Source of the DNA: Pseudomonadota bacterium
GTDB taxonomy: Bacteria; Pseudomonadota; Alphaproteobacteria; UBA2136; JAPKEQ01
Direction of reading: 5' to 3'
Assembly: GCA_036141575.1 (NCBI GenBank)
Contig: JAYZXF010000011.1
Location: forward strand, 62,001-126,000
DNA: 64,000 nt
Made by a program: the position numbers and the translations under genes. Of the stretch, positions 5,426-26,991 are shown piece by piece. Within the stretch, counting starts at the first letter, position 1. Every line of letters starts with the position of its first letter. The notes beneath the pieces are model-generated. The model saw nothing but the letters and a program-made list of their open reading frames with translations, was not told the DNA's origin and made no database searches.

Positions 5426-6940
5426 ATGATAGCACCCATGAAGATTTTTAGGACACACCTGACGAATGAGCAGGATACTGAAAAACTTGCAGAAGCACTT
5501 GCTAAGTTTACAGTTGCGGGGGATCGTTTCTATTTAAATGGTACGCTCGGTACGGGGAAAACGACATTTAGTCGTGCCTTTGTGCATGCTCTCGGCAGTA
5601 AAGATGCTCATGTCCCAAGCCCAACGTTTACCTTGGTGCAAACCTATGATGACGCGCGCCTCCCTGTTGCGCACGTGGATTGTTACCGTATTGAGAACCC
5701 AGATGTTGAACTTGAAGCGTTAAGCTTGTCTCCATTCTTTAGAGACGGTGTGACCCTTCTTGAGTGGGCCGATAAAGTACAAACAAGTTTGCCACCTGTT
5801 GCTGGAACAGATGTCGCAATCGCTGAACTTGATATTCCAGATGCCCTTACAATCAATATTAGCCACGGGTCAGATGACTCTCGTGATGTGGAAATGTTTG
5901 CTTCAGGTAGCTGGGCATTTCGCCTTGAGCGCATTGGTACATTCAGTGAGAAAGAAGATAAACAAGAACACCGTTACTCTGAACATGAGTATATGAGTAA
6001 AAATGGCCTGCGTGGCCATGTGCTAACACCGCTATTTCAAGATTGCTCTTTGAGAAGTTACTCTCGTTTTAAAACAGGTGAAGGTTCACGTGTTCTTATG
6101 AACGCGCCTCCAGGGCTAGAAGATTTGGCAACGTTTGTTCGTCATGCAAAATCTCTTAAGATGCAGGGCGTGAATGTGCCTGCGATTTACGAATATAGCC
6201 TTGAACATGGGTATGCCATGCTTGAAGATTTTGGTGATACGATTCTTCATAAGGCATTGATTCGTGCCCCTAAAGATGAGCTGCTATTAAGTAAAGCCTT
6301 TGAAATGCTCAAAGCTTTCCAAAGCACAAACCTTACAGATATTCCAAAGTACACAGAAGATACGACATTTGCAGAAGCAAGCCGTTTTACAGACTGGTAT
6401 TTACCATATGCAAAAGGCCATGCGACACCAACAGGGGCCCGCCGTGAGTGGAGAAACCTGTGGTTTGATCTTTACCCACAAATTGCGGCCATGCCTCAAG
6501 TGCCTGTGCATTGGGATTTCCATGTTGGTAACATGATGGTGCTTGAAAGTGGTGAGCTTGGGCTGATTGATTTTCAAGATGTAAAGCTTGGTTCTTGTGC
6601 CTTTGATCTCGCATGCCTACTAGAAGATCGCTACCCTGTTTCAGAGCATGTGAAACAAGCTCTTATTACAAACCTTGCAGAGCATCACGGTGTAGACAAA
6701 GATGCCTTTGAGGCTGCTTATGTACTTGGTGCCCTCCATCGTATGTTTAAAGTAACAGGGCTTCTGGTTCGTTTGAAAGAGCGTGACGGTAAAGAGGATG
6801 CGCTTTCACGTATGGGTGAAGTGTGGCAGACCATTGCGCGTTTGTGTGAACATCCTGTGGCAGCGCCAATTAAAGAGTACTTGAACCGCGTGTACCCAGT
6901 GTACGAAGAAAAATACCTTAAAGCACAGAAGGCATCGTAA
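5426..6940 (+). CDS. TsaE - AmgK-type sugar kinase fusion
   Basis: A two-domain protein of about 504 residues. The N-terminal 150 residues are TsaE, the ATPase of the tRNA t6A37 threonylcarbamoyl complex: the P-loop GTLGTGKTT is at about 39-47, followed by PSPTFTLVQTY and the DCYRI and LLEWADK blocks. The remaining ~320 residues are an aminoglycoside-phosphotransferase-fold kinase with the catalytic loop HWDFHVGN (about 362-369) and the metal-binding LIDFQD (about 380-385). This matches AmgK, the anomeric MurNAc/GlcNAc kinase. MurU follows 6 bp later, which supports that assignment. ATG 5426 has GAGAAG 7 bp upstream; ATG 5438 is an alternative start. Confidence 0.88.
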   Translation: MIAPMKIFRTHLTNEQDTEKLAEALAKFTVAGDRFYLNGTLGTGKTTFSRAFVHALGSKDAHVPSPTFTLVQTYDDARLPVAHVDCYRIENPDVELEALSLSPFFRDGVTLLEWADKVQTSLPPVAGTDVAIAELDIPDALTINISHGSDDSRDVEMFASGSWAFRLERIGTFSEKEDKQEHRYSEHEYMSKNGLRGHVLTPLFQDCSLRSYSRFKTGEGSRVLMNAPPGLEDLATFVRHAKSLKMQGVNVPAIYEYSLEHGYAMLEDFGDTILHKALIRAPKDELLLSKAFEMLKAFQSTNLTDIPKYTEDTTFAEASRFTDWYLPYAKGHATPTGARREWRNLWFDLYPQIAAMPQVPVHWDFHVGNMMVLESGELGLIDFQDVKLGSCAFDLACLLEDRYPVSEHVKQALITNLAEHHGVDKDAFEAAYVLGALHRMFKVTGLLVRLKERDGKEDALSRMGEVWQTIARLCEHPVAAPIKEYLNRVYPVYEEKYLKAQKAS

Positions 6941-6946
6941 GAACAT

Positions 6947-7681
6947 ATGGCACGTATTAAACAGGCAATGATTTTGGCAGCAGGTAAAGGTACACGCCTT
7001 GGCCATTTGACACAAAAGACTCCAAAGCCTCTTATTGAGGTGTGCGGTAAGCCTGTTCTTTTATATGTACTTGACCACTTGAAGGCACATGGTGTTGAGA
7101 AAATTGCCATCAATACACATTACCTTGCAGAACATGTAGAGTTCGCGGTTGAAGCGTGGAGCCAGACATCAGGTGTGCAGGTGAAGGTTTTCCGTGAAGC
7201 ACAACTTCTTAATACTGGTGGTGGCATTTGCCAAACCGTTCCATTTTTTGAAAACAAACCATTCTTCCTTGTCAATGGAGATGCGATTTGGACAGGTGGC
7301 CCTGCACTGTTTGAGGCACTTGAAAACACATTCCATAGAGAGCATATGCAAGCCCTCCTTAGCCTGATTGAACTGGATAAAACATCTGCCTTCCGTGCGC
7401 CAAAAGCAGATTATGAAATGGATGCTGCGGGCCAAATTTTGAGTCGTAGCTCTGAAACCTCTTCTTGGGTTTATATGTGCACAGCAGTTTTGACACCTGA
7501 TCTTTTTGCAGGCCGAGAGATTGAGCCGTTTTCTCTCATTGAGCAGTACGATGCTGCAATGCACAGTGGAGCCTTATACGGATTACCATTTGATGGGCTG
7601 TGGGCTGATATGGGGACACCTGAAGGTCTCGCTTTTGCAGAACAGTTGATGAGTGATCATCCGCAAAAACAAACGGCGTAA
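6947..7681 (+). CDS. murU: N-acetylmuramate alpha-1-phosphate uridylyltransferase
   Basis: A 244-residue nucleotidyltransferase with the signature LAAGKGTRL-x6-TPKPL at residues 10-28 and a short C-terminus without a left-handed helix domain. The family makes UDP-MurNAc from MurNAc-1-P and UTP. With the upstream AmgK domain it gives the anabolic recycling route that bypasses MurA/MurB and so bypasses fosfomycin. The VNGDAIW strand carries the metal-binding aspartate. It starts 6 bp after the fusion gene and sits 5 bp before addB, so these genes are probably one transcript. Confidence 0.87.
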   Translation: MARIKQAMILAAGKGTRLGHLTQKTPKPLIEVCGKPVLLYVLDHLKAHGVEKIAINTHYLAEHVEFAVEAWSQTSGVQVKVFREAQLLNTGGGICQTVPFFENKPFFLVNGDAIWTGGPALFEALENTFHREHMQALLSLIELDKTSAFRAPKADYEMDAAGQILSRSSETSSWVYMCTAVLTPDLFAGREIEPFSLIEQYDAAMHSGALYGLPFDGLWADMGTPEGLAFAEQLMSDHPQKQTA

Positions 7682-7686
7682 GCGCC

Positions 7687-10548
7687 ATGGCAAAGTTTTT
7701 CCATACTTCACTTTCTAGAGATTTCTTTGGTGTGTGCGCAGAAATGCTTCTGGAAAAATATAACCCTTCACAGAACCCTCTTGCGCTCACACACATTACG
7801 GTTTGGGTGCCGTCGTCACGTATGGCAGATAGTCTGGCTGAAAGTCTTCTTGAAAAAGCTGGCGGTGGTGTCCTTCTTCCTGATATTCGTCCAATGGGAG
7901 CTGAAACAGATGATGTTCTTTTGTTTGATGAACCTGAAGGCGGTAAAGTTGTTTCTGGTTTTGAACGTCTTATGTTTCTCACTGAGTTTTGTATGAAAAA
8001 CATGCCACATGCCCAGTGGTCTAAGGCTCTTAACCTTGCTAAACATCTCGACACACTCTGGAAAAAGATGTTGCTGAGTGGTGTAGAAATGGAAGCACTG
8101 GAAAGCGCAATTCCAGAAGAGTGGCAAGCCCGCTGGGAAGATGTGACCCTTTATTTAAAAGGCCTCACAAAGGTGTATCCGCGCTACTTGCAACAAGGCC
8201 ATATGAAGGATGAAACACTCCATAAAATTGATGTTCTTAAAACATATACCGCGCAGTATGAAAAGAATGACCTTACAAATGATGTTTGGGTGATTGGCTT
8301 TAGTGATACGATTGATCCTGCACAGGCAATGCTGAAAGCTCTTTCAAATTGTGATAAAGCGTCCTTTATTATGCCCATGGATAAAGAAGCGTTTCCGCAT
8401 GTCTTTGCAGAAGATTTTTTAGAGCCTACCCATCCTTTATATGGTTTACAGCGTTTCATGAAAAGTTGGCAGCTTTCAGTTTCGCAGCTAGAGCCTCTCA
8501 AAGCAGATACTCAAACAAGCTATGTCAGCTTGTTTGATGCTGTACCTTCTCTCGGCCATGATATTTCAACTTTCACACTTTGCGAAACAGCTCACCTAGA
8601 GAGCGAAGCTGAAACAGTTGCTTGGACCATGGCTGAAAAAGCAATGGAGAAAGAAGGCACCTGTGCCCTTGTAACCTCTGATCTGGCACTTGCTTTCCGT
8701 GTGCAAGAGCTTTTAACCCACTACGGCCTCTTTGTAGATAGAACCAATAGTTCCCCATTTGTAAGCACCCCTCTAGGTACACTATCTTTGCAAGTTTTAG
8801 AGTGTATGATGTCTGGTTATAAGGCTGATATGCTCGCCGGATTGGTTTTAAGTCCTGTAACCAATAGAGGTATGAAAACTTATGCAGCAGGCACACTAGA
8901 TGCCTCACTTCTTCGAGGGATGATTCGTGGTGCAAGCTCTCTAGGTGCATGGCAAACAAAAGCTGAAATGGCGTCTGATATTTCGGATGAAATTAAACAG
9001 CAGTTTATGCATATGTTGGACGCCTTCAAAGCATTTGATGCGCAGGCTTCTCGTTCTTTAAGTGATTGGCTGAAGGCGCATTTAGAGCTTCTATTAAGCC
9101 TTGCAGATTCACCGTACGGTCGCAGTTTCCTAATGCGAGAGGAAGAGGGGTTGAAGGCGTGGCAGCTTATGATCCAACAAACAGAACATATGGCGGCCCA
9201 GCTTTCCTTTAAAGATTATGCGGAACGTTTTGATGTCCTATTTGAAACCGTCTCTATTCCAAACCGCACAGAAGGTGCGCATCCAAGACTTAAAATTCTT
9301 GGTCCTTTAGAGAGCCGTTTGCAACGTTACGATACCGTGATCCTTGGTGGTTTAAATGAGGGTACAACACCGGGACGCATTTCACCTGATGTGTGGCTGT
9401 CTTATGAACAGCGTCGTGATTTGGGTCTTCCACCTGTAGAGAGTTCAATTGGCCTGAGTGCTCATGACTTTTTAAGCCAACTTTATACGAAAGATGTGAT
9501 TTTGACACGTCGCACACAGAGTGATGATGGTGCAACTTTACCATCTCGTTTCTTAATGCGTTTAAAGAGTGCCATGGGCACAAAGTCGTATGAAAAACTC
9601 ATTCAAAGAGGCCGTGTTATTGTAGATGCCGCAGAAGGTCGTCGCCTTGCAGGTGAAAGTACGCCTTTAACGGAACATGCTGCCGTTCATGCGAGTACAG
9701 ATGCTTCTCCGAAAGCTTGGTCACCAAGTTATGTGAAAGACATGATGGGCTGCCCTTACAAAGCGTATATGCGCAAAGGGGCGGGGGTTAATGCATTAGA
9801 ACCTTATAATAAATCTCCAGACGCGGCATTACGTGGGAATTTAATTCATGATGTTTTAGCGATGTTTTGTATGAAACATACGCATTTGGATACGTCTTAT
9901 AAAGAGAGTGACACACAAGAGCTTATTGAGTGTGCACGCAGTCTCATGGAGAAAGAACTTCCTGCAGCTGTGCAAGCGGTATGGATGACACGTTTTGAAA
10001 AGCTTGCCCCAGACATTATTACCTTCTGGCATGAGCGCTTGTCTTCAGGCTGGTATCAGCAGGCCATAGAAGAAGATGCAACATCACAGAAAACACCTGT
10101 ACCTCTCTTCTCTCGCCTTGATCGTGTAGACGGAGATAACGCAGGTAAGCTCAGTATCCTTGATTATAAAACGGGAACGCTCCCAACCAAGAAAGATGTG
10201 CTCACAGGTGCTCAGCCTCAACTTATTTTAGAAGCCATGGCGTGGCTAGAAGCCCAACATCACAGTACAGTGAAAGAGCTTCTATACCTCCGTTTGCCAG
10301 CAGGTAGCCGCGATGGTGCAAAAGCTATGTATGTGGCAAATGATGAAGGCCAAGTGGAAACACTCATGGAACAAGCGACAGAAGGCCTTAGCAGCTTGAA
10401 AGCGCTTTATTATGGTGAAGATAAAACATGGCCTGCAGTGGCGGGTGGTGTGTCTGCTGTAAAGTTAGAAGGCGCTTGTGAAATGTGTGACTACAGTGGT
10501 ATCTGCCGTGTTCGTGAATGGGTGAGCAAAGAAGGAGGCGCCGCATGA
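7687..10548 (+). CDS. addB: double-strand break repair protein AddB
   Basis: A 953-residue protein of the alphaproteobacterial AddB type. The helicase-like core is inactive in this subunit family. The C-terminus holds a RecB-type PD-(D/E)XK nuclease: GNLIHDVLAMF supplies the His, and LSILDYKTGTL around residue 824 supplies the Asp/Lys. Four cysteines, one in GCPYKAYM near 688 and three in CEMCDYSGIC near 931-940, form the expected 4Fe-4S clamp around the nuclease. It resects double-strand ends with AddA for RecA loading. Its stop overlaps the addA start (ATGA), implying translational coupling. Confidence 0.93.
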   Translation: MAKFFHTSLSRDFFGVCAEMLLEKYNPSQNPLALTHITVWVPSSRMADSLAESLLEKAGGGVLLPDIRPMGAETDDVLLFDEPEGGKVVSGFERLMFLTEFCMKNMPHAQWSKALNLAKHLDTLWKKMLLSGVEMEALESAIPEEWQARWEDVTLYLKGLTKVYPRYLQQGHMKDETLHKIDVLKTYTAQYEKNDLTNDVWVIGFSDTIDPAQAMLKALSNCDKASFIMPMDKEAFPHVFAEDFLEPTHPLYGLQRFMKSWQLSVSQLEPLKADTQTSYVSLFDAVPSLGHDISTFTLCETAHLESEAETVAWTMAEKAMEKEGTCALVTSDLALAFRVQELLTHYGLFVDRTNSSPFVSTPLGTLSLQVLECMMSGYKADMLAGLVLSPVTNRGMKTYAAGTLDASLLRGMIRGASSLGAWQTKAEMASDISDEIKQQFMHMLDAFKAFDAQASRSLSDWLKAHLELLLSLADSPYGRSFLMREEEGLKAWQLMIQQTEHMAAQLSFKDYAERFDVLFETVSIPNRTEGAHPRLKILGPLESRLQRYDTVILGGLNEGTTPGRISPDVWLSYEQRRDLGLPPVESSIGLSAHDFLSQLYTKDVILTRRTQSDDGATLPSRFLMRLKSAMGTKSYEKLIQRGRVIVDAAEGRRLAGESTPLTEHAAVHASTDASPKAWSPSYVKDMMGCPYKAYMRKGAGVNALEPYNKSPDAALRGNLIHDVLAMFCMKHTHLDTSYKESDTQELIECARSLMEKELPAAVQAVWMTRFEKLAPDIITFWHERLSSGWYQQAIEEDATSQKTPVPLFSRLDRVDGDNAGKLSILDYKTGTLPTKKDVLTGAQPQLILEAMAWLEAQHHSTVKELLYLRLPAGSRDGAKAMYVANDEGQVETLMEQATEGLSSLKALYYGEDKTWPAVAGGVSAVKLEGACEMCDYSGICRVREWVSKEGGAA

Positions 10549-13500
10549 GTACTGTAAAAATGCGTCGTGACGCTGTCACGCTTGAAGCGACAAAAGCCCA
10601 GCGCCTTGCGTATGATCCGTCTCGTAGTGTGTGGCTGAGTGCTTCTGCCGGAACAGGTAAAACTTATGTTTTAATTCGCCGTTTGTTGCGCTTATTTTTA
10701 CATGACCTCACCTTGAAACCGTCTGATATTTTGGCACTTACCTTTACCAAGGCAGCGGCGAGAGAAATGGAAGAGCGTTTTGTAAAAGCGCTAGTAGAGT
10801 GGAGTGAATGTTCTGATGAAGAGCTACGCCATAACTTAGATATTCTTTTAGAACGTGCGCCAACGCAAGATGAAATGCAACGTGCGAAAACGCTCCTTAC
10901 TGCTGTGTTAGATAGTGAACCACCTATGACCATTACCACGCTTCACGCCTTTGCGGGTCAGGTGATTTCTCGTTTTCCGCTTGAGAGTGGCATTTACCCA
11001 GGCAGTCAAATTCTTGATGATGAAGAGCAACGTGCTCTCCTAGAACAAGCTCTACAAAGTACTTTTGAACTTCTTGGTACACGTACAGAAACAGAAGAAC
11101 CTCATTGGGCGTTTGTATGTCTTGCAGAGCGTATGGCGGAGTCAACACTCAGAGATGTGTTTACAGACTTTATCCATAATGCCCGCCGTTATAAAAATAT
11201 GTTTGCAGAAGCGGGTGGTCTTGCAGGTGTACTGGCAGCCCTTAAAGATGACTTAGACCCTCGCCTCGAAAATGCTGAGCATTGGCGCACACAAAAACAG
11301 CAGGCGATGGGCGAAGCTACACCTTATAAGGATGCTCTTCTTTTGGTGCAAGACGCCTTTTCAAAAAGTGCCTCAAGCACAGATAAAAAGCAGGCAGCCA
11401 AGCTCCAAAACTTCCTTGAGGCCAGCTCATCAGAAAACAGATCTTTCTACTTTGAGAGCTACGCACGTGCCTTTTTAACGGCTGCAAAAGAGCCTGTAAA
11501 ACGCTTTGCCACAAAGAAGGTTTATGAAGGTTTTACACCAGAAATGCTTGAGGCTGTTGAGCTAGAAACAGAGCGTGTTCTTGCGGTGTATCAGTTCCTT
11601 GCTGCGGGGGACACTTTTGCCGAAACGCAAGCCTATCTCATGATGGCGTCTATGGTGCTTTCACATTATGAAAACTTGAAAAAGACTCATGCACAGATTG
11701 ACCATGATGATTTGATTGATGCGCTTGTGACACTCCTGAATGATGAAGAAAATCGTGATTGGGTGCTGTATCGACTAGATCAACGCTACAAGCATATCAT
11801 GGTGGACGAGGCGCAGGATACCGATGGTCGTCAGTGGCATATTGTACGTGCGCTGTTGAGTGAATTCTTTATTGGTGAAGGAGTACATGAAGCGGAAGAA
11901 GCGCCTCGCACCTTCTTTACCGTTGGAGATATGAAGCAGAGTATTTATCGCTTCCGTGGCGCAGAGCCAGAAGTCTTCCTTGCAATGCGTGATTACTTAA
12001 AACAGGCCCAACCAGAGCGTGACCCTGTGGTGAATATGAAAACTTCTTTCCGTTCAGGTGCTGCGGTGCTTGGTAGTGTGGATATGCTGCTCTCTAATCA
12101 ACGTCTAGGGACGTATGCTTCAAGTGCTGGTGAAACGCACGGTGTCCAGCGTATCGGTGCGCCAGGTGTTGTTGAGATTCATCCGCTCTTAGAAGAAGAG
12201 AAGAAATCAGCGCCGGAAATGAACGGCTGGATTATGCCGTCTGATCGTCCAAAACCTGTGAGTAAATATACGCCGCTTGCTGCTCAGGTGGCAGGGTGGA
12301 TTCAAGGCCTGTTAAAAGGTGGTGCTGTACTTCCATCCACAGGTAAAGCTGTTACAGCCAGTGATGTGATGATTCTCCTTAAAAACCGTACCATGATGCC
12401 AGAGCTCATTGCTGCACTTGATGCAGCTGGTATTCCGCATGGTGGTGCTGATGTGATGACGCTGAAAGATATTCAGTTTGTACAAGATATCTTAGCTGTG
12501 ATGCGTGTGGTGCTGAACCCGCTAGACCAGCTCGCGCATTTGCAAGTTTTGAAAAGTCCGCTTTGGGGCGTAAGTGATCAGGTGATTGAATCTCTCAGAG
12601 GGAATTTGAAAGATGGTGCACTTTGGGCCTCTTTTGCAGAAGATGACCGCTTTGTAGATTATGTAGAATGGGTGCAGGAATTAAGCCGTAAAGCATCAGA
12701 AGGGTGTGAAGCCCTTCTTCATCTTGCTGTACAAAGTAGAGGCGCGCTGGGAGCATATGCCATGCGCCAAGGTGTAAAGCCAGAAGTGATTGATACTTAC
12801 TGGGGCGAACTTCTCAAACTTGCCAAAACAGCAGATAAAAAATCCCAACCTCTTACAAGTTTTGTGCATGAAACCATGAACCGTAGCACCAATGTGAAGC
12901 GCTCAGAAAGTGGCGCGGAAGGTGTACGTTTAATGACGGTTCACGGTTCTAAAGGTCTGGAAGCTCCTGTGGTGATTCTACCTGATACAACAAGCGCAAT
13001 CACGGTGAGTAAGGAGAAAGTCTTTTGGGAAAAGGACAGCAAATACGTCCTTCTTCGCCAAAGTACAGAAAGTAAAAGTGAGCTTCAAAAATCACTTGAG
13101 GCTGAAGAGCTTGAGCGCATGTACGGCGATGATATGAAGCTTCTGTATGTGGCAATGACAAGAGCAGAAGATCACTTGATGGTGTGTGGGGTACCCGCAA
13201 AAGAGAAAAGTGCTGAGAGCTGGTACGTCTGGATTGAAAGTATGCTGGAAGAGCAAGGTGCTGAGTGGCGAGAACGCTCGGATGGTGCAAAGGTTTATTA
13301 CACGCCAGCAGAGGAACAGTTGCCTCTTGCTGAAGAAGAGAAGGTTGCCGTACTTAAAGAAGTGCGCCCAGTACCAACGCCAAAGCATGAGCGTATGCAG
13401 CCTCGTTTAAAACCATCTTCTGGTAAAGGGTTTGATGTAGATACGCTTTTGACAGAAGCGCCAAACCCAGCAGATTTTGCGCGTGGTGCGTTCATTCATA

Positions 13501-13958
13501 AATGTCTTGAACACCTACCTGCTATGCAAAGCGGTTGCACCCCTTGCGAGCTTGAGTACTTTCTTGAACGCCTCAAAAAACAATATACACACCTGATTTC
13601 AGATAAGGTGATGGAGGAAAGTTTTAAGCTTTCTCAGAAAGTCATTCAAGATTATCCACAATTCTTTGGTGAAAACTCAAAGGCAGAGGTGCCATTTCGA
13701 GTGAGCTTGAAAGAGGGGCTTGTTAGTGGTGTGATGGACCGTGTGGTGATGGGTGAAGATTATGTTCATATTATTGATTACAAAACAGCATCATACCTTC
13801 CAGAAGAAGGTGAAACTATGGAGCGTTATCAAGCACAGGTGAGCCTATATGAAAAAGCGATGTCTTCTTTGTATAGCAGTAAGAGTATAAGTTCATATCT
13901 TCTTTGGATTACGCCAAACGGAATTCGTCTCGATAGAGTTGACAGTTCGAAAAAATAG
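10545..13958 (+). CDS. addA: double-strand break repair helicase AddA
   Basis: A UvrD/RecB-family helicase-nuclease of 1137 residues. Walker A SASAGTGKT is at about 29-37, motif II VDEAQDTD near 420, motif III GDMKQSIYRFRGA, motif V LMTVHGSKGLE and motif VI LLYVAMTRAEDHL. A C-terminal PD-(D/E)XK nuclease has HIIDYKTA near 1077. ATG 10545 was chosen because GAAGGAGG lies 6-7 bp upstream and the codon overlaps the addB stop. This is the motor subunit of AddAB and the final gene of the murU-addBA run. A 115-bp gap separates it from trxA. Confidence 0.94.
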   Translation: MSTVKMRRDAVTLEATKAQRLAYDPSRSVWLSASAGTGKTYVLIRRLLRLFLHDLTLKPSDILALTFTKAAAREMEERFVKALVEWSECSDEELRHNLDILLERAPTQDEMQRAKTLLTAVLDSEPPMTITTLHAFAGQVISRFPLESGIYPGSQILDDEEQRALLEQALQSTFELLGTRTETEEPHWAFVCLAERMAESTLRDVFTDFIHNARRYKNMFAEAGGLAGVLAALKDDLDPRLENAEHWRTQKQQAMGEATPYKDALLLVQDAFSKSASSTDKKQAAKLQNFLEASSSENRSFYFESYARAFLTAAKEPVKRFATKKVYEGFTPEMLEAVELETERVLAVYQFLAAGDTFAETQAYLMMASMVLSHYENLKKTHAQIDHDDLIDALVTLLNDEENRDWVLYRLDQRYKHIMVDEAQDTDGRQWHIVRALLSEFFIGEGVHEAEEAPRTFFTVGDMKQSIYRFRGAEPEVFLAMRDYLKQAQPERDPVVNMKTSFRSGAAVLGSVDMLLSNQRLGTYASSAGETHGVQRIGAPGVVEIHPLLEEEKKSAPEMNGWIMPSDRPKPVSKYTPLAAQVAGWIQGLLKGGAVLPSTGKAVTASDVMILLKNRTMMPELIAALDAAGIPHGGADVMTLKDIQFVQDILAVMRVVLNPLDQLAHLQVLKSPLWGVSDQVIESLRGNLKDGALWASFAEDDRFVDYVEWVQELSRKASEGCEALLHLAVQSRGALGAYAMRQGVKPEVIDTYWGELLKLAKTADKKSQPLTSFVHETMNRSTNVKRSESGAEGVRLMTVHGSKGLEAPVVILPDTTSAITVSKEKVFWEKDSKYVLLRQSTESKSELQKSLEAEELERMYGDDMKLLYVAMTRAEDHLMVCGVPAKEKSAESWYVWIESMLEEQGAEWRERSDGAKVYYTPAEEQLPLAEEEKVAVLKEVRPVPTPKHERMQPRLKPSSGKGFDVDTLLTEAPNPADFARGAFIHKCLEHLPAMQSGCTPCELEYFLERLKKQYTHLISDKVMEESFKLSQKVIQDYPQFFGENSKAEVPFRVSLKEGLVSGVMDRVVMGEDYVHIIDYKTASYLPEEGETMERYQAQVSLYEKAMSSLYSSKSISSYLLWITPNGIRLDRVDSSKK

Positions 13959-18385: not shown

Positions 18386-19450
18386 TTAGTTGCCACCAAC
18401 CCCGAGAATTGTGCCGCGCTTACCACCATGGGCAAGAAGTAGGTTCGCAATATCAAGGTGACCATAGTCCAGTGCAAGATCAATCGCTGTACGGCTGTTT
18501 CTGTTGGTTGTATTGGCATCTGCACCACGCTCTAGCAGGTATTTGGCTACATTAAAGTGTCCATAGATCACTGAGATCAACAGTGCGTTATTACTGTTAA
18601 TATCGCGCGGCCTTAGGTTTGCACCAAGATCCAAAAGTTTTTTAGTGAACTTAATTGACCCTTTGTAAGATGCCAACATAAGTGGTGTAATACCAAAGCG
18701 GTTTTGGTGGTTATAGTTGGCACCAGCTTTAATAAGTGTATCAAATAGCTCAGCATTATTGTTTTCAATGGCGTAGTAGAGCGGAGTCCATTCTTCCGCA
18801 TTGGTTGCATTGACTTGCGCTTTTTTAGCAATGAGGCGCTCTACAATATTTAGGTTGTTGTTTTTAGCGGCAACAATAAGCGGCGTTTCTTCAATAGAGT
18901 TGGCGATGTTTACATTTGCGCCAGCCTCCAGGAGAATTTCAATAATCTGAGTCTGGTCAGCACGCACAGCTGTGAGAAGTGGGTATGTTCCAAATGAATT
19001 TTGTTTATTCAGGTCATGGCCAATTTGTAAAAACAGGTAAACCGCATCAGTATTACCTGTGCGGGCAGCGTTAATGAACCCTTCTACAGTGTTGGCAAAG
19101 CCCATATCTTGGAGCTTTTCAATCATAATAATGCGTTTTGAAATTTCTGTATCAGATAGGCCCATTTCACGGAACTCAAGAAGTTGCTTGATGTAAGCCT
19201 CATCACGTCTAATGTTGCTTTCGTCTTCCGCCACTACATCGGTTTCTACCATTTTACCATCTTTAATGCGTGATCTTTTTTGAAGCTCTGTTGATTCATT
19301 AAACTCATTGAGTTCATCTAAAGTTTTCTGGTTCTCAAATGCTTCAGGTTCTTCTTGCAGAAGGGCACGCTCAAAAATATTTTGAGCATAGAGATTGGGA
19401 GCTACACAGAGCCCTAGCGCAACAATAAGTGTTTTATTCATTTTTTTCAT
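18386..19450 (-). CDS. secreted ankyrin-repeat protein
   Basis: A 354-residue protein with a Sec signal peptide (MNKTLIVALGLCVAPNLYAQ after the first three codons). A charged linker rich in Glu/Arg (about 25-105) follows. From about residue 120 there are six or more ankyrin repeats, recognisable by TPLxxAxxxxxxxIVxxLLxxGANxN-type spacing, for example near NSIEETPLIVAAKNNNLNIV. Ankyrin arrays bind proteins, and the signal peptide places this one in the periplasm or outside. ATG 19450 and ATG 19441 are both possible. It is divergent from aspS. Confidence 0.82.
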   Translation of the reverse strand: MKKMNKTLIVALGLCVAPNLYAQNIFERALLQEEPEAFENQKTLDELNEFNESTELQKRSRIKDGKMVETDVVAEDESNIRRDEAYIKQLLEFREMGLSDTEISKRIIMIEKLQDMGFANTVEGFINAARTGNTDAVYLFLQIGHDLNKQNSFGTYPLLTAVRADQTQIIEILLEAGANVNIANSIEETPLIVAAKNNNLNIVERLIAKKAQVNATNAEEWTPLYYAIENNNAELFDTLIKAGANYNHQNRFGITPLMLASYKGSIKFTKKLLDLGANLRPRDINSNNALLISVIYGHFNVAKYLLERGADANTTNRNSRTAIDLALDYGHLDIANLLLAHGGKRGTILGVGGN

Positions 19451-19548: not shown

Positions 19549-21375
19549 ATGCCAAACGAATACAGAACACACACGTGTGGAGAACTTAACAAAACTCAGG
19601 TTGGTGAGACAGTCACTCTCTCTGGATGGATTTACCGTCGCCGTGACCACGGTGGGGTTGCTTTTATTGACTTGCGTGATGCGTTTGGTATTACTCAAAT
19701 TGTATTTGATCCACAAAGTGCAGGGACTGACCTGATTGATAAAGTGACGCATACATCACTTGAAACAGTGATCCGTGTTGAAGGTAAAGTTGTTGCGCGT
19801 GATGATGCGCAAGTGAACCCGAAAATGTCGACAGGTGAAATTGAAGTTGATGTGGCATCTATGGATGTTCTAAGCGCTGAAATTGAGCAAATTCCTTACA
19901 ACATTAGTGATGAATCAGTGCCAGAAGAAATGCGCCTGAAGTACCGCTTTATGGATCTTCGTACAGAGCGTATGGCTCGTAACATTGATCTACGTAGCGA
20001 TGTGATTGCTTCTATGCGTCGTCGTATGTGGGATCTTGGCTTTAAAGAGCACCAAACGCCACTGATTACAAGTAGTTCACCAGAAGGTGCGCGTGACTTC
20101 CTTGTCCCGTCTCGTGTACACCCAGGTAAGTTCTACGCTCTTCCACAAGCGCCACAGCAGTTTAAGCAACTTCTTATGGTGAGTGGTTTTGATAAGTACT
20201 TCCAAATTGCACCTTGCTTCCGTGATGAAGACGCCCGTGCTGACCGTTCACCAACTGAGTTTTACCAGCTGGATATGGAAATGAGCTTTGTGACGCAAGA
20301 AGACACATTTGCAGCATTTGAAGCGGTGTACCCGCCACTTCTTGAAGAATTTTCTGACTTTACAGGCGTGAAGTATGACGTTGACCAAGGTCCACTACGT
20401 CGTATTCCTTACGCTGAGTCTATGTTGAAATACGCATCAGATAAGCCAGACCTTCGTATCGCCATTGAAATTATGGATGTAAGCGAAGATTGGGCTGCTT
20501 CTGACTTTGGCGTATTCAAAGGCATCGTTGAAAAAGGCGGCCATGTTCGTGCAATCCCTGCACCAGGGGCTGCTGCACAACCTCGTAGCTGGTTTGAAAA
20601 GCTTGGCTCTTGGGCACAAAAGTCTCTTGGTATGCCAGCGGCTCCAGGTTACATCACTTGGGCTGAAGGCGGCTTTAAAGGCCCACTTCTTAAGTTCATC
20701 TCTGAAGATAGTGTAAAAGCTATGTTTGAGCGTGCTGGTCTTAAAGAAGGTGACAGCCTATTCTTCGTTGCTGGTAAAACACCAGACCTTTACAAGCAAC
20801 TTTCTCCACTGCGTGTACGTATTGGTGAAGACCTTGGCCTTAAGGAAGAAAACGCATTCCGCCTATGCTGGATTGTTGACTTCCCAATTTACGAGCGTGA
20901 TGAAGAAACAGGTAAGCTTGATTTCGAACACAACCCATTCTCTATGCCACAAGGTGGTATGGAAGCGCTGGAAACAAAAGATCCACTTGAGATTAAAGGT
21001 TACCAGTATGATGCGGTATGTAACGGTTTTGAAATCCTGTCAGGTGCGATTCGTAACCACCGCCCAGATATTATGTACAAAGCTTTTGAGCTTGCTGGCT
21101 ACGATAAGAGCACAGTAGATGACCAGTTTGGCGGTATGATTAACGCCTTTAAACTTGGCGCTCCTCCACATGGTGGTTGGGCAATCGGTGTTGAGCGTAC
21201 AATTATGCTCCTTGCTGATACAGCAAACATCCGTGAAATTACAGCCTTCCCGATGACACAGCGTGCGGAAGACCTTCTGACAGGTGCTCCAAACGAAGCG
21301 TCACCAGAGCAAATGATGGAACTTCACCTGAAGCATGTAAACCTGCCTCAACCTGAAGAAACAGCTGTTGCTTAA
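19549..21375 (+). CDS. aspS: aspartate--tRNA(Asp/Asn) ligase
   Basis: A 608-residue class-II synthetase with the bacterial layout: an N-terminal OB anticodon-binding domain (LSGWIYRRRDHGGVAFIDLRD, about 25-45), the catalytic core with motif 2 FRDEDARADR, a large GAD insertion (about 290-430) and motif 3 GWAIGVERTIMLL. It charges tRNA-Asp. Whether it also mischarges tRNA-Asn depends on GatCAB, which is not in the window. The length is normal for the family. It is a single-gene unit with its own terminator. Confidence 0.95.
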   Translation: MPNEYRTHTCGELNKTQVGETVTLSGWIYRRRDHGGVAFIDLRDAFGITQIVFDPQSAGTDLIDKVTHTSLETVIRVEGKVVARDDAQVNPKMSTGEIEVDVASMDVLSAEIEQIPYNISDESVPEEMRLKYRFMDLRTERMARNIDLRSDVIASMRRRMWDLGFKEHQTPLITSSSPEGARDFLVPSRVHPGKFYALPQAPQQFKQLLMVSGFDKYFQIAPCFRDEDARADRSPTEFYQLDMEMSFVTQEDTFAAFEAVYPPLLEEFSDFTGVKYDVDQGPLRRIPYAESMLKYASDKPDLRIAIEIMDVSEDWAASDFGVFKGIVEKGGHVRAIPAPGAAAQPRSWFEKLGSWAQKSLGMPAAPGYITWAEGGFKGPLLKFISEDSVKAMFERAGLKEGDSLFFVAGKTPDLYKQLSPLRVRIGEDLGLKEENAFRLCWIVDFPIYERDEETGKLDFEHNPFSMPQGGMEALETKDPLEIKGYQYDAVCNGFEILSGAIRNHRPDIMYKAFELAGYDKSTVDDQFGGMINAFKLGAPPHGGWAIGVERTIMLLADTANIREITAFPMTQRAEDLLTGAPNEASPEQMMELHLKHVNLPQPEETAVA

Positions 21376-21391
21376 GGCAAAACACTTTAAA

Positions 21392-21417
21392 AACCCTCTC
21401 AAGCGAGAGGGTTTTTT
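21392..21417 (+). terminator. Rho-independent terminator after aspS
   Basis: AACCCTCTC (21392-21400), loop AAGC, GAGAGGGTT (21405-21413), then T-run. Confidence 0.9.
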
Positions 21418-21461: not shown

Positions 21462-21489
21462 TTGTACTACTTATTTTGTGTTGTATACT
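21462..21489 (+). promoter_or_regulatory. putative promoter of the MotA/MotB-like module
   Basis: TTGTAC (21462-21467), 16-bp spacer, TATACT (21484-21489) preceded by TG (extended -10). The predicted leader is about 85 nt and ends in a pyrimidine tract (21555-21566) that could partly pair with the AAGGAGAG ribosome site across a GAAA loop. Confidence 0.4.
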
Positions 21490-21581
21490 AATTCAATCTA
21501 TCAATCTATATCGTAAATTTTGCTCCACTTATGGAGCCCCGCCTACAAAGGCGTTCTTCTCTTTTCCGAAAGGAGAGAATC

Positions 21582-22388
21582 ATGTTTAAAAACATGGTCT
21601 ACAAAAATACCATCAAGTTTATCTTTACCTTGGCTGTGCTCGCCACTGCTGGCTTGCTGGGCTATGGTAAAGGTGTTCTGGATCCTTTTATCCTTGAAGT
21701 CGGTACTGTGCCATTTTGGTGGTGTATCGGCATTTGTGTCGCTATCGCTTGGGTCTGGTTTAATCTGTTGCGCTCTGGTCTTGCACTCGACCGCGCCATG
21801 ATTGATGCCAAAAAGACAAAAGCTTATCTGGACGATGAGTCTGTTGATCCGACTGATCGTGTTTTGACAATGGTGACTGGTAACATCACTGGTGTGAGCC
21901 AAGATTCCATTGTTGCACGTCTGTATCTTCGGATTGGCAAGTCGCTCAAAACCAATGCCAAATACCAAATCAACATCAACAACTTTCAGGACCGCTTTAA
22001 CAGCGAGCTTGGTCGTCGGTTGATGTGGGTTCTAGGTGTGTCTGGTCTTTTGACCGTTCTTGGTCTGATCGGGACATTTGCCGGCTTTATGTTCGGTATT
22101 GAATCCCTTGGTTTGAGTGAATCCATCGTCTTTGAAGAAATTGTGGGCAAGATTGGTTCTGCTCTCGATGGCTTTAAGACAGCTTTTGCAACCACACTGT
22201 ATGGTGCTGTTGGTTTTGCGGTTGCCACCTATTTGGCAATCACCCAACGCATGAATGCAAGTGAAGTCAGCAATACGGTTATCACCATGACGGACACGCA
22301 AGTGTTGCCAGTTGTGAATGATCCTGAGCTGGTTGTTGGCTTGATGCAAAAATGGAATGAACTGAAAACTCAGCAGGAGGAATCGTAA
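21582..22388 (+). CDS. MotA/TolQ/ExbB-like proton-channel protein
   Basis: A 268-residue protein with four predicted membrane spans (about 12-30, 38-58, 150-170, 195-216) and a cytoplasmic loop between spans 2 and 3. This is the MotA/TolQ/ExbB topology. Span 3 carries LLTVLGLIGTFAGFMFGI and span 4 carries FATTLYGAVGFAVATYLAI, which match the conserved LGLLGTVxG and TTxxGLxxA blocks of that superfamily. AAGGAGAG precedes ATG 21582. It is the first gene of a three-gene unit whose base composition looks more GC-rich than its flanks. It is probably the ion-conducting subunit of a motor-like complex. Confidence 0.7.
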   Translation: MFKNMVYKNTIKFIFTLAVLATAGLLGYGKGVLDPFILEVGTVPFWWCIGICVAIAWVWFNLLRSGLALDRAMIDAKKTKAYLDDESVDPTDRVLTMVTGNITGVSQDSIVARLYLRIGKSLKTNAKYQININNFQDRFNSELGRRLMWVLGVSGLLTVLGLIGTFAGFMFGIESLGLSESIVFEEIVGKIGSALDGFKTAFATTLYGAVGFAVATYLAITQRMNASEVSNTVITMTDTQVLPVVNDPELVVGLMQKWNELKTQQEES

Positions 22389-22423
22389 GATCCCGCTGCG
22401 TAACATAGAAGGAGTGTCACATC

Positions 22424-23206
22424 ATGCGATTTGACAATTCTTTTGATGACTTCGGCGGAGATAATGCGGTTGCGAATTTGATCGCGGATGCGTGGGCCGG
22501 CTTTGCCGGCACACTGCTCATCCTTATTATCCTCTTGCTTCTGGTTATCAATCCAAAGGCCGACCCTGTCGAGCCAGAAGAATCCGCACTGTATATTACC
22601 TCTGTGTGGGACACGGGCCTTCCCTACCGGGATGATCCGAACAGTTCCCGCCGTGCTAAGCTTGAATCAGCTGGTGTTCCGATTCAGCCTGGTCACTCCA
22701 TGTCAGACTTTGACTTGTGGGTGGCTTATATTGCTGATGAAGGTGGCCGCTGTGAGCTTGTGGGTTATCCCAGCCAAATCCGTAAATCACCTCTCCTGAA
22801 ATTGGACGAGGATGATCGCGGCTGGTCGGGATCTGACCTGAAGGATGACATCAACCGTGAGGTTGTGGGCGCACGTAGCCTTCGTCTTCCTGCAGGACAG
22901 TACATTGTATCGGTACACTTGTTCTCTAGCCGTGACCCGGTGAGTGAAGAAGTACCGCTGCTTGTAGACTTGAAAATTGAGGTCAACAAAGATCAGCCTG
23001 ATCGTTACCTGATTGAACATCAAATTCCTTACACGCGTTCGCGTATGGAGTATGGTGTACAGTTTCGGGTGAATGAGGATGGTCAGGTCATTGAATCTTC
23101 AGTGCTTGCACCCTCAACTGAAATGCGTATTGCAACGGCGCCCGGTGGCCGGAACTCAATTTGTGGTTCCTCTTCGCCCCGTAGGCCTGGTCCGCACTCG
23201 CGTTAA
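22424..23206 (+). CDS. MotB/ExbD-like single-span partner protein
   Basis: A 260-residue protein with a short acidic N-terminus and one membrane span (about 20-42). The span starts NLIADAWAGFAGT and so carries a buried acidic residue (Asp22) in the position of the proton-binding Asp of MotB, ExbD and TolR. The ~215-residue periplasmic part looks beta-rich and is not an OmpA-type peptidoglycan-binding domain. AAGGAG lies before the ATG, and the gap from the channel gene is 35 bp. It likely forms the stator-like pair with that gene. The coupled load is unknown. Confidence 0.6.
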   Translation: MRFDNSFDDFGGDNAVANLIADAWAGFAGTLLILIILLLLVINPKADPVEPEESALYITSVWDTGLPYRDDPNSSRRAKLESAGVPIQPGHSMSDFDLWVAYIADEGGRCELVGYPSQIRKSPLLKLDEDDRGWSGSDLKDDINREVVGARSLRLPAGQYIVSVHLFSSRDPVSEEVPLLVDLKIEVNKDQPDRYLIEHQIPYTRSRMEYGVQFRVNEDGQVIESSVLAPSTEMRIATAPGGRNSICGSSSPRRPGPHSR

Positions 23207-23217
23207 AGGAGAAAGCT

Positions 23218-24135
23218 ATGTATGACTTTCTAATGGAATATGTCATGGATGGGCGTTCCTTGGCCGTGGTGTATGTGGTTTCCGCTGCACTTGGTGCTTT
23301 CCTTCTTATCTCCACCGCTGTGGGCGTTTCCGCAGCGTTGGGGGTGAAGGTTCGCCCTTGGGTCGCACTGTGTGTGGCCAGCTTGGGCGCAGTCCTGTTT
23401 GCTGTGAATACGCTCATTCAAGTCAATATGCCTAACGTCATTTATGATGGCGCTTATAGCCAAGGTAAAAATGACTACATCGGCATGCCGAACCCTGGTT
23501 GTTTTAGCGTTGTTTACGACGCTGAAGGACAGCCCCGAATGATGTTTGGGGCAGGGCAAACGGTCGACCGAGTGGTTGAACCTGTGCTGGACGCTGAAGG
23601 CAATCCTAAGATTGGTGAGAACGGGAAACCGCTTCTGAAGCTGATTGAAGGCGCTGACCTCGTCAAGTACACGCTGCGGGCACGTCCTGTCACTGAGCGT
23701 GGCTATGTTTACCTTTGGGTGAGCTCGCCGGTTTATCCGGAAGTTCATTCTTGTAAGCTTTATCAGGACCAAAAGAACAATGATCTCGCACAAGGCCTCC
23801 AAGAGGCTTGGGATCAGGTTCATGGCACTGAGCCGGAAGGCGAAGGCGAACAAGGTGAAGGTGAGCAGGGTGATGCCGAACAAGGGCAACAGCCTGGCCA
23901 GCAAGGCCAAGGACAAGCGCAAGGTCAAGGTGAACCTAAGCCTGATATCGAATTCACTATGCCTGTTGAAACAGAACAGGACGGTGAAGTTACGGAAGAG
24001 GCTCAAGGTGAAGAAGGTGCAGAAGGTGAAAAAGGTGAAGGTGCAAATGCCCAAAACCAAGATCCTGATGGGACGCCGTCTTCGGGAATGATTACCATCG
24101 TTCCTTATGATCCTGACTTGCCGCCTAAGCAGTAA
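23218..24135 (+). CDS. membrane protein with acidic Gly/Gln/Glu-rich tail
   Basis: A 305-residue protein with two membrane spans (about 14-36 and 45-65), then a soluble region to about residue 195 with GKNDYIGMPNPGCFSVVYD. The last ~110 residues are low-complexity, rich in Glu, Gly and Gln (runs such as EGEGEQGEGEQGDAEQGQQ), and the protein ends in a Pro-rich tip. GGAGAAAGCT precedes ATG 23218, 11 bp after the MotB-like gene. No known family is recognised. It probably belongs to the same complex, perhaps as a flexible periplasmic or surface element. Confidence 0.6.
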   Translation: MYDFLMEYVMDGRSLAVVYVVSAALGAFLLISTAVGVSAALGVKVRPWVALCVASLGAVLFAVNTLIQVNMPNVIYDGAYSQGKNDYIGMPNPGCFSVVYDAEGQPRMMFGAGQTVDRVVEPVLDAEGNPKIGENGKPLLKLIEGADLVKYTLRARPVTERGYVYLWVSSPVYPEVHSCKLYQDQKNNDLAQGLQEAWDQVHGTEPEGEGEQGEGEQGDAEQGQQPGQQGQGQAQGQGEPKPDIEFTMPVETEQDGEVTEEAQGEEGAEGEKGEGANAQNQDPDGTPSSGMITIVPYDPDLPPKQ

Positions 24136-24157
24136 GTCTCTGACAAATCGAACTCAG

Positions 24158-24184
24158 AAAAGGTGCCTACGGGCACCTTTTTTG
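24158..24184 (+). terminator. Rho-independent terminator closing the three-gene module
   Basis: AAAAGGTGCC (24158-24167), loop TACG, GGCACCTTTT (24172-24181), T-run. Confidence 0.9.
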
Positions 24185-24253: not shown

Positions 24254-25288
24254 ATGCCTATGTTTGCAATTGCCAAAACGGAAGCTGCTGTGGGGCTTTC
24301 TCCTATCCAAACATCTCACCCTGAAAAACCAACCGCTGGTGAAGTGCAAATTAAAGTGCACTACGCAGGCCTGTGCGGTACAGATATGCACATTTATAAC
24401 TGGGATGCATGGTCACAAGAGCATGTGAAGCCTCAGCGTATTCTTGGTCATGAATTTGTGGGTGAAGTGGTTGCTGTTGGTGACGGTGTTACACGTGTAG
24501 AAACAGGGCAAATGGTGAGTGGTGAATGTCATGTCGTATGTGGTGTCTGTTCACTCTGTAAAGCTGGCAAAGCACACCTGTGTGAACAAACAGAGATTAT
24601 TGGCGTGCACCGTGATGGTGCCTTTGCAGAAGTCTTTAATTTCCCTGAAAGCAATGTATGGCCTGTTCACTCTTCTATTCCAACAAAGCATGCGGCGATT
24701 TTTGATCCACTTGGTAATGCAATGCACACGGTAGACGCAGCTGATGTGGGTGGTAAAAATGCTTTAGTTGTTGGAGCGGGAACCATTGGTCTTGCTGCGG
24801 TTTCAATGGCGAAATCGCGTGGTGCAAAACGTGTGTTTGTCTTTGAGCCAAACCCTGAAAAACGTGCTCTTGCTCTTCAATTTGGTGCAGATGAAGCCGT
24901 AGATAGTGCGGATGCAAATAAGTGGAGTGTCCTTAAAGGCGTAGAGATTGGATCTGTTCTTGAAATGAGTGGTCATCCAGCAGGTATGAATGATGCTTTT
25001 GAAGCAGTTCAGGCTGGTGGTACAGTTGCGATGCTTGGTCTCCCAAGCAGTGAAATTTCCTTTGATTTTGCAAAACATATCATCATGAAGGGTGTTTCTG
25101 TACATGGTGTGATCGGCCGCAAGATGTATGAAACTTGGGAACAGGTCGATACATTCCAGCGCTCTCATGCAGATACAGTGGAAAAACTCATTACTCATAC
25201 GGTTAAAGCTGAAAACTTTGAAGATGCTTTTGCCCACATGAAAGCCGGAAAAAGCATTAAAACAGTCCTTGATTTTAGCCATTTTTAA
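24254..25288 (+). CDS. tdh: L-threonine 3-dehydrogenase
   Basis: A 344-residue zinc medium-chain dehydrogenase. The catalytic zinc site is formed by Cys41 (LCGTD) and His66-Glu67 (GHEF). The four-Cys structural zinc lobe spans about 93-113 (GECHVVCGVCSLCKAGKAHLC is its core), and a Rossmann VVGAGTIGLAA follows near 178. CGTDMHIYNWDAWSQ is the threonine-dehydrogenase signature. It oxidises threonine to 2-amino-3-ketobutyrate. A strong GGAG lies 9 bp before ATG 24254. The downstream kbl completes the pathway, so the assignment is firm. Confidence 0.93.
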   Translation: MPMFAIAKTEAAVGLSPIQTSHPEKPTAGEVQIKVHYAGLCGTDMHIYNWDAWSQEHVKPQRILGHEFVGEVVAVGDGVTRVETGQMVSGECHVVCGVCSLCKAGKAHLCEQTEIIGVHRDGAFAEVFNFPESNVWPVHSSIPTKHAAIFDPLGNAMHTVDAADVGGKNALVVGAGTIGLAAVSMAKSRGAKRVFVFEPNPEKRALALQFGADEAVDSADANKWSVLKGVEIGSVLEMSGHPAGMNDAFEAVQAGGTVAMLGLPSSEISFDFAKHIIMKGVSVHGVIGRKMYETWEQVDTFQRSHADTVEKLITHTVKAENFEDAFAHMKAGKSIKTVLDFSHF

Positions 25289-25794: not shown

Positions 25795-26991
25795 ATGAAC
25801 ACATCATTTCAGTCTCACCTAGAAACAGAGATTCAAGGCCATAAAGAAGCAGGGACTCTTAAAGAGCTTCGCCACCTGGATGCGCCGATGTCTGCTCATA
25901 CAAACATGCGTGAAGCGGGCGGTGAAGTGGTTGTGCTCTCTTCTAATAACTATCTTGGTCTGGCCAATCACCCTCATGTGGTTGCCTCAGCAAAAAATGC
26001 GCTTGAAAAATATGGTAATGGTACAGCGTCTGTACGCTTTATCTGCGGTACTATGACGATTCATGAAGAGCTTGAAGAGAAACTTGCGAAATTTCATGGC
26101 ACAGAGTCATGCATGACGTACCCATCTTGCTGGTCAGCCAATACAGGACTCTTTCCAACCATTTGTAAACCGGGTGATGTGCTTCTGAGTGATGAGCTGA
26201 ACCATGCCAGCATTATTGATGGTTGCCGTCTGGTTTCTAAGGCTGTGCAGAGAGATGTTTATAAGCATAGCGATATGGCTGACCTAGAAGCCAAGTTAAA
26301 AGCGTCTCAGGATGCGCCTAACCGTTTTGTGGTGACAGATGGTGTCTTCTCTATGGAAGGAGACATTGCAAAGCTTCCTGAGCTTGTAAAGCTGTGTAAG
26401 ACGTACAATGCGGTGCTTATTGTTGATGATTGTCACGGCGTGGGTGTACTTGGTGAAACAGGTAAAGGTATTACCCAACACTTCGGTCTTGAGGGGCAGG
26501 TTGATATTATTACAGGAACTGTTGGTAAGGCACTTGGTGGCGCCGCAGGTGGTTATATTTGTGGCTCTAAAGAGCTAACACAGCTTCTTGTACAAAACTC
26601 ACGTCCACACCTCTTTTCAAACGCCATTTCTCCTGCAACAGCTGGGGGCACAATTGGTGCGCTTGAAGCGCTTGAAAGAGAGCCTGAGCTCATGACAAAG
26701 CTACATGCGAACGTGAAGCAAATGCGTGATGGTTTGAAGGCTCTTGGCTTTAAACCTCTCGATGGGGAAAGTGCGATTATTCCAATTATTGTTGGCGATA
26801 CCGCCCTTGCCATTCAAATGGCGGATGAAATGTTAAAACAAGGTTTCTTTGTGACAGGGTTTGGGTTCCCTGTGGTGCCAGAAGGCGCTGCGAGACTGCG
26901 TATTCAGATGAGTGCTGCTCTAAGTGAATTGGATATCTCTAACGCATTGGATGCACTTGCAATTATCGGTAAAAAGCATGGTTTGATTTAA
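25795..26991 (+). CDS. kbl: glycine C-acetyltransferase (2-amino-3-ketobutyrate CoA ligase)
   Basis: A 398-residue alpha-oxoamine synthase of the PLP fold. SNNYLGLANHP near residue 45 is the family signature, DDCHGVGVLG near 215 contacts PLP, and TGTVGKALGG places the Schiff-base lysine at 245. It cleaves 2-amino-3-ketobutyrate with CoA to glycine and acetyl-CoA. GAGGAG precedes the ATG. Together with tdh this gives threonine to glycine plus acetyl-CoA. AONS or serine palmitoyltransferase relatives are less likely, given the tdh neighbour. Confidence 0.92.
   Translation: MNTSFQSHLETEIQGHKEAGTLKELRHLDAPMSAHTNMREAGGEVVVLSSNNYLGLANHPHVVASAKNALEKYGNGTASVRFICGTMTIHEELEEKLAKFHGTESCMTYPSCWSANTGLFPTICKPGDVLLSDELNHASIIDGCRLVSKAVQRDVYKHSDMADLEAKLKASQDAPNRFVVTDGVFSMEGDIAKLPELVKLCKTYNAVLIVDDCHGVGVLGETGKGITQHFGLEGQVDIITGTVGKALGGAAGGYICGSKELTQLLVQNSRPHLFSNAISPATAGGTIGALEALEREPELMTKLHANVKQMRDGLKALGFKPLDGESAIIPIIVGDTALAIQMADEMLKQGFFVTGFGFPVVPEGAARLRIQMSAALSELDISNALDALAIIGKKHGLI

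Follow-up and report, generated by a model that had tools for sequence, protein, structure and literature searches.

A candidate ion-driven envelope module, A-B-C, in Alphaproteobacteria and their phages

Introduction

To which family of membrane machines does the three-gene module described here (A-B-C) belong, and what may it do in the cell? The ion-driven motors treated in the literature consulted here are MotAB/PomAB, ExbBD-TonB, TolQRA, AglRS, GldLM and ZorAB (PMC9389320, PMC12505986), and term searches of the same two papers returned no phage-encoded ion-driven motor. Nor did we find a description of the module itself in the literature searched, which included PMC12505986, PMC9389320 and PMC11890865 and left most subscription papers outside its reach. 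The module lies in a stretch of 64,000 nucleotides (the window) that is part of contig C11 of an alphaproteobacterial genome assembly of 1.85 Mb. A first-pass annotation of the window had proposed a MotA/MotB-like unit running from promoter to terminator, possibly acquired by transfer, that could be a new envelope or defence machine. We have followed up these proposals with profile searches, structure prediction and a comparison of loci in bacteria and phages.

The operon and its surroundings

A, B and C are three co-directional open reading frames that form one operon, bounded upstream by the terminator of aspS and downstream by a strong stem-loop (Table 1). The proposed unit has its terminator, and no sigma-70 promoter stands out upstream of the three genes. 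A is read as a protein of 268 aa and not as the 285 aa of the longest open reading frame, because the inner ATG (21582) has its own Shine-Dalgarno sequence and the sister MAG ANT-120 (L005) uses the same start. Protein identity to this sister species is 84, 79 and 74% for A, B and C, and the third codon positions of all three genes change several times faster than the second, the first also being far slower than the third. These identities and the excess of third-position differences indicate that A, B and C are real genes under selection.

Table 1. Features of the A-B-C module and its neighbourhood; positions refer to the window unless a locus is named.
Feature	Position	Strand	Basis or remark
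aspS, conserved upstream neighbour	19549..21375	+	also neighbour in L005, G196, G290
Terminator separating aspS from the module	21389..21416	+	aspS terminator
Gene A, four-span MotA/TolQ/ExbB-like subunit, 268 aa	21582..22388	+	profile A11 matches; start from sister genome
Thr165 of A, TM3 GTF/GTV motif	22074..22076	+	aligned with conserved Thr of TolQ GLFGTVWG
Thr205 of A, TM4 A-x-x-TT-L-x-G	22194..22196	+	aligned with TM3 Thr of TolQ (ALIATAIGL)
Gene B, single-span MotB/TolR-like partner, periplasmic beta-sandwich domain, 260 aa	22424..23206	+	AlphaFold model, Foldseek
Asp22 of B, predicted ion-binding residue	22487..22489	+	conservation among B homologues
Gene C, two-span, small alpha/beta domain, Gly/Gln/Glu-rich tail, terminal LPPK, 305 aa	23218..24135	+	homologues, lysozyme fusions
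C tail, Gly/Gln/Glu-rich, ~100 residues	23830..24132	+	LPPK at 24118-24129
Intrinsic terminator of the operon	24155..24184	+	stem-loop -21 kcal/mol, z -4.73
tdh-like (threonine-dehydrogenase-like) gene, conserved downstream neighbour	24254..25288	+	synteny
kbl	25795-26991		after tdh-like gene
C-lysozyme fusions	L178:8670-9569, L179:6677-7537, L182:2645-3553		PF00959

The module is more GC-rich than its surroundings, as had been noticed at first pass: GC3 is raised in all three genes (z = 2.1-2.7 against 43 window open reading frames), and mildly so in L005 too. The recent horizontal transfer that this composition had suggested is not supported, and we reject it on synteny and codon-position divergence. 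The order aspS-A-B-C-tdh-kbl is common to distant families, third-position divergence between the window and L005 is the same in the module as in neighbouring genes, and the module is core elsewhere. Its neighbours in the window are aspS, tdh, kbl, and MFS and ankyrin genes; a secreted-looking ankyrin-repeat gene beside aspS (18386-19450, minus strand) has a counterpart in a distant family (G196; L035 14337-15365).

Subunit A

The window A protein alone does not reach PF01618 in a Pfam search and yields sub-threshold matches to ZorA (NCBIfam 2.9e-7, 29.9 bits against a cut-off of 100; PADLOC 1.5e-9). A profile (A11) that combines the A proteins of the window, its sister and phages matches MotA (8gqy, 1.5e-10), TolQ (9.5e-9), ZorA (1.2e-6) and ExbB (8.9e-5), reaching 18 PDB sequences at E<=0.001 over the TM3-TM4 core with the same best value of 1.5e-10. 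Two motifs are nearly invariant in A, GxxGTxxG in TM3 and A-x-x-x-T-x-x-G in TM4, and align with the TolQ motifs that bear the channel threonines. The threonines of these TolQ motifs line the TolQ channel, and their counterparts, Thr165 and Thr205, are nearly invariant among 59 homologues of A. By profile and motif, A is a true member of the MotA/TolQ/ExbB superfamily with both channel threonines conserved, in agreement with the class first proposed for the module. Only ~48 of the 268 residues lie beyond TM4, and phage A proteins consist of a minimal four-span core, mostly 130-200 aa long, without the torque interface.

Subunit B

B crosses the membrane once, near its N-terminus, and carries an Asp where this span begins on the cytoplasmic side, as expected of a MotB/TolR/ExbD-type partner. 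Eight B proteins, close or paralogous, all share this residue, Asp22 in the window. Of 89 alignment rows from bacteria and phages, nearly all have it where the span begins, the register being read ungapped since MAFFT misplaced the Asp column in alignments A4 and A10. In L102 it is shifted by one turn, and L140 has an extra acidic residue. The attention that the first-pass annotation had drawn to this buried acidic residue was well placed, and so was its remark that B lacks the OmpA domain: Pfam gives no match, and the AlphaFold model (pLDDT 78) consists of a transmembrane helix (residues 11-42) and an all-beta, nine-strand sandwich.

A Foldseek search with this model gave convincing PDB matches to just two proteins, both with the TerD fold (prob 1.0, TM-score about 0.5 by target). 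The likeness is confined to the predicted fold of the periplasmic domain, and we reject TerD homology as lacking profile support: B has no Pfam match to the TerD sequence family PF02342, hhalign against two TerD proteins gave a probability of 0.1%, and TerD proteins, unlike B, are not anchored in the membrane by such a helix. Broad B members show at most a weak echo of DUF2135 in Pfam, and neither B nor C falls within a Pfam, NCBIfam, PHROG or PADLOC family. Two tandem B-domain genes occur at L101 6018-7254 with neither A nor C adjoining. The second (6718-7254) begins with a sequence resembling a signal peptide and is otherwise free of membrane spans, which fits a periplasmic location of the B domain.

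Subunit C

Following its two spans, C carries a small domain with the signature YLW...EPRxYxLPY and, in the window and many phages, a Gly/Gln/Glu-rich tail that frequently ends in LPPK or LPEK; P[PEASD]K falls within the last 25 residues in 31 of 54 C proteins, compared with 11% in shuffled tails. The three-gene architecture first described, with four spans in A, one span with Asp22 in B, and two spans and a tail of ~100 residues in C, is thereby borne out. The C model is poor (pLDDT 58), too poor for a fold search, and the protein has no sequence similarity to TonB/TolA.

In three viral contigs, two of them close copies of each other, C is fused C-terminally to a phage lysozyme (PF00959, T4-type). 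Since the periplasm is where the fused lysozyme has to work, the tail of C should lie outside; the positive-charge bias favours a cytoplasmic TM1-TM2 loop (positive-inside). Fusion and charge bias together support a periplasmic C-terminus for C.

Distribution in bacteria

The B profile matches 54 of 385 alphaproteobacterial genomes. Sampling across the phylum gave matches in 18 of 398 genomes, 13 of which belong to the class. Among 20 bacterial loci inspected, 19 have A upstream, 19 have a C homologue, 19 hold the complete set of genes and 18 show the order A-B-C; L094 (7013-9041), with A-C-B, is the sole rearrangement. Relatives of the module are core both in a genus of mostly 5-10 Mb genomes (68 of 80 species) and in a family of mostly 0.9-1.4 Mb assemblies (29 of 32 species), all five of the more complete assemblies of the latter carrying it. 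The bacterial copies are single-copy and have ordinary chromosomal genes as neighbours. A class-wide scan added two distant relatives, G196 and G290, both with aspS-A-B-C followed by tdh and kbl; in G290 three tandem trypsin-like serine protease genes lie directly upstream of aspS-A-B-C (L036 3093-6315). Downstream of the module, several alphaproteobacteria encode a conserved lipoprotein with a YFPL...W.Y motif (L096 7084-7785, L098 10328-11116, L103 7162-7857).

The B profile also uncovers paralogues: a second three-gene type in G005 and G006, and a four-gene type, A'-B1-B2-C', in G196 and in the window's own genome (G000:C16), in which both B proteins keep the Asp. In the window genome this four-gene paralogue (L050, G000:C16:44000-63000; 7676-11420 and 11733-13813) is divergent from an adjoining terD-terB-terD cluster, with two terD genes and one terB. 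Having two different Asp-bearing B subunits, A'-B1-B2-C' may form a 5:1:1 motor. A linked tolQ-tolR-tolA-tolB-pal cluster is absent at the module; the genome has its own tolQ-tolR-tolA-tolB on contig C3 (L038) plus a flagellar motA, which makes A-B-C a third such system in it.

Distribution in phages

The window's own A, B and C proteins gave no match in a first viral scan and in phage tblastn, and the broad B alignment was needed, with which 295 IMG/VR contigs match; 80 of these were kept. With one bacterial B as query, tblastn returned 42 isolate phage records, those of Rhizobium and Sinorhizobium phages being near full-length relatives and those of enterobacterial phages weak, partial B matches. 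The latter, hypothetical proteins of ~150 kb phages such as Cronobacter phage CR3/CR8 and Enterobacter phage F4M1E (H67-H73; B-domain E about 1e-3 to 1e-4), are probably phrog_1735, of unknown function, to which B has a weak link that provides no PHROG function.

The operon is carried by tailed phages: of 84 phage loci, A is present in 78, C in 76 and A-B-C in order in 72, that of Rhizobium phage 16-3 among them. Several of the remaining loci are truncated at a contig end or have an A that is too divergent. The module corresponds to p038-p040-p042 in 16-3 and to three adjacent hypothetical genes in RHph_I1_9, RL2RES and RHph_N3_13. The gene-neighbourhood comparison called for at first pass finds the A-B-C order conserved in bacteria and phages alike. 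Beyond the first-pass description, the module proves to be a widespread family of phages and alphaproteobacteria, and the genome that holds the window has a four-gene paralogue as well. The B tree requires five changes between phage and bacterial labels, of which starred branches enforce three. The window lineage belongs to a separate, well-supported group that comprises eight bacterial sequences. Misassignment may explain some 'viral' contigs that fall within bacterial clades (L104-L106).

A trypsin-like protease gene, its product secreted or a lipoprotein, immediately precedes A in 14 of the 80 viral loci (about ten of them distinct) and close upstream in 16-3, with three matches elsewhere in the loci. 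Lysozyme genes are not clearly enriched near the module in phage loci, fusions apart.

Discussion

The closest parallels in organisation are TolQ-TolR-TolA and ExbB-ExbD-TonB, each with a multi-span protein bearing two channel threonines, a one-span partner with an Asp and a third protein that extends far into the periplasm, as C is predicted to do. Yet B and C have no sequence link to these systems, the domain of B is a beta-sandwich where theirs has the ExbD/TolR fold, the spans of C number two, and no TolB, Pal or receptor genes accompany the module. MotAB/PomAB share the superfamily of A and an Asp motif where the B span begins, whereas phage A proteins are without the torque interface, B is without the OmpA domain, and the module lies away from flagellar genes. 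ZorA is the best match of A among curated profiles, but an assignment to Zorya on this ground is rejected, as the NCBIfam score is far under its cut-off and B and C do not fit: A lacks the long cytoplasmic tail of ZorA, B lacks the OmpA-type peptidoglycan domain, and the distribution is core where that of Zorya is sporadic. The module thus stands outside the named Tol, Exb, Gld and Zorya systems, as first suspected, with profile searches matching no family for B or C.

On balance we consider it probable that A-B-C is a new family of ion-driven inner-membrane envelope machines in which C takes the part of TonB/TolA. The motor class is well supported by the sequence comparisons, and peptidoglycan or envelope work is the role we favour. 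A would be the channel or wheel (the role of TolQ/ExbB/MotA), and B the axle or gate (that of TolR/ExbD/MotB), with its ion-binding Asp and a TerD-fold-like beta-sandwich in the periplasm. C would be a two-span periplasmic arm beside A and B, whose small domain, flexible tail and LPPK end extend toward the peptidoglycan or outer membrane. Ions passing Asp22 of B and the two threonines of A would set B in motion, and B in turn would move C. By inference, A and B would form a pentamer:dimer, the ion would be the proton, and C would contact A/B. Our guess is that the work concerns the handling of peptidoglycan or outer membrane, with a housekeeping duty in bacteria, and that phages borrow the module to modify the host envelope during infection.

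The phage copies, the protease and the lysozyme fusion speak for such cell-wall or envelope work. Against it count the missing sequence similarity of C to TonB/TolA, the many phages in which the module stands outside a lysis cassette, and the scarcity of nearby lysozyme genes other than the fusions. Some of the same observations can be read otherwise. A superinfection-exclusion or anti-phage machine, sensing or blocking phage entry at the cell wall as Zorya does, would serve phages against competitors, with bacteria retaining a copy. The weak ZorA similarity of A would fit, as would carriage by phages, including temperate 16-3 with the module close to its attP/int end, a protease partner remotely similar to protease domains of defence proteins, and the terD/terB genes adjoining the four-gene paralogue. 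We nevertheless think this reading unlikely, as ZorC/ZorD or ZorE effector genes are not adjacent to the module, the ZorA tail and OmpA domain are missing, and the bacterial copies, core and single-copy among housekeeping genes, argue against a mobile or plain defence island. Of the earlier alternative of an envelope or defence machine, the envelope half is the one that we favour.

It is quite improbable, in our estimation, that the module is a phage lysis device, a motor that energises or times the endolysin or outer-membrane disruption and was later domesticated by bacteria. The C-lysozyme fusions point that way, as does L126, where A-B-C-x-lysozyme-amidase forms a lysis cassette directly after the tail genes, but these are the only cases that stand out, and we reject a lysis-cassette enrichment; most phage loci have no adjacent lysis gene, large Rhizobium myophages carry the module near gyrase and sigma-factor genes outside the lysis cassette, and the bacterial clades are deep and core. 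A passive ion channel or envelope-stress sensor with the MotA/TolQ fold, performing no mechanical work, would suit the minimal phage A, but we give it little credence, since the third subunit is conserved and has a long tail, placed in the periplasm, whose end is conserved too, and the superfamily members studied to date are motors (PMC9389320).

For the envelope machine, a more specific proposal, which we put forward tentatively, is that phages and alphaproteobacteria share a three-subunit motor driven by the ion gradient, whose arm C bears a lysozyme in some phages and whose four-gene variant is an asymmetric 5:1:1 assembly. A further motor family, core in some alphaproteobacteria (streamlined genomes of ~1.4 Mb included) and common in their phages, would widen the roles of such motors. 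If true, phages would act on the envelope by means of the host's ion gradient, and the phage module, with an A of about 140 aa, would offer a small system in which to study how these motors work.
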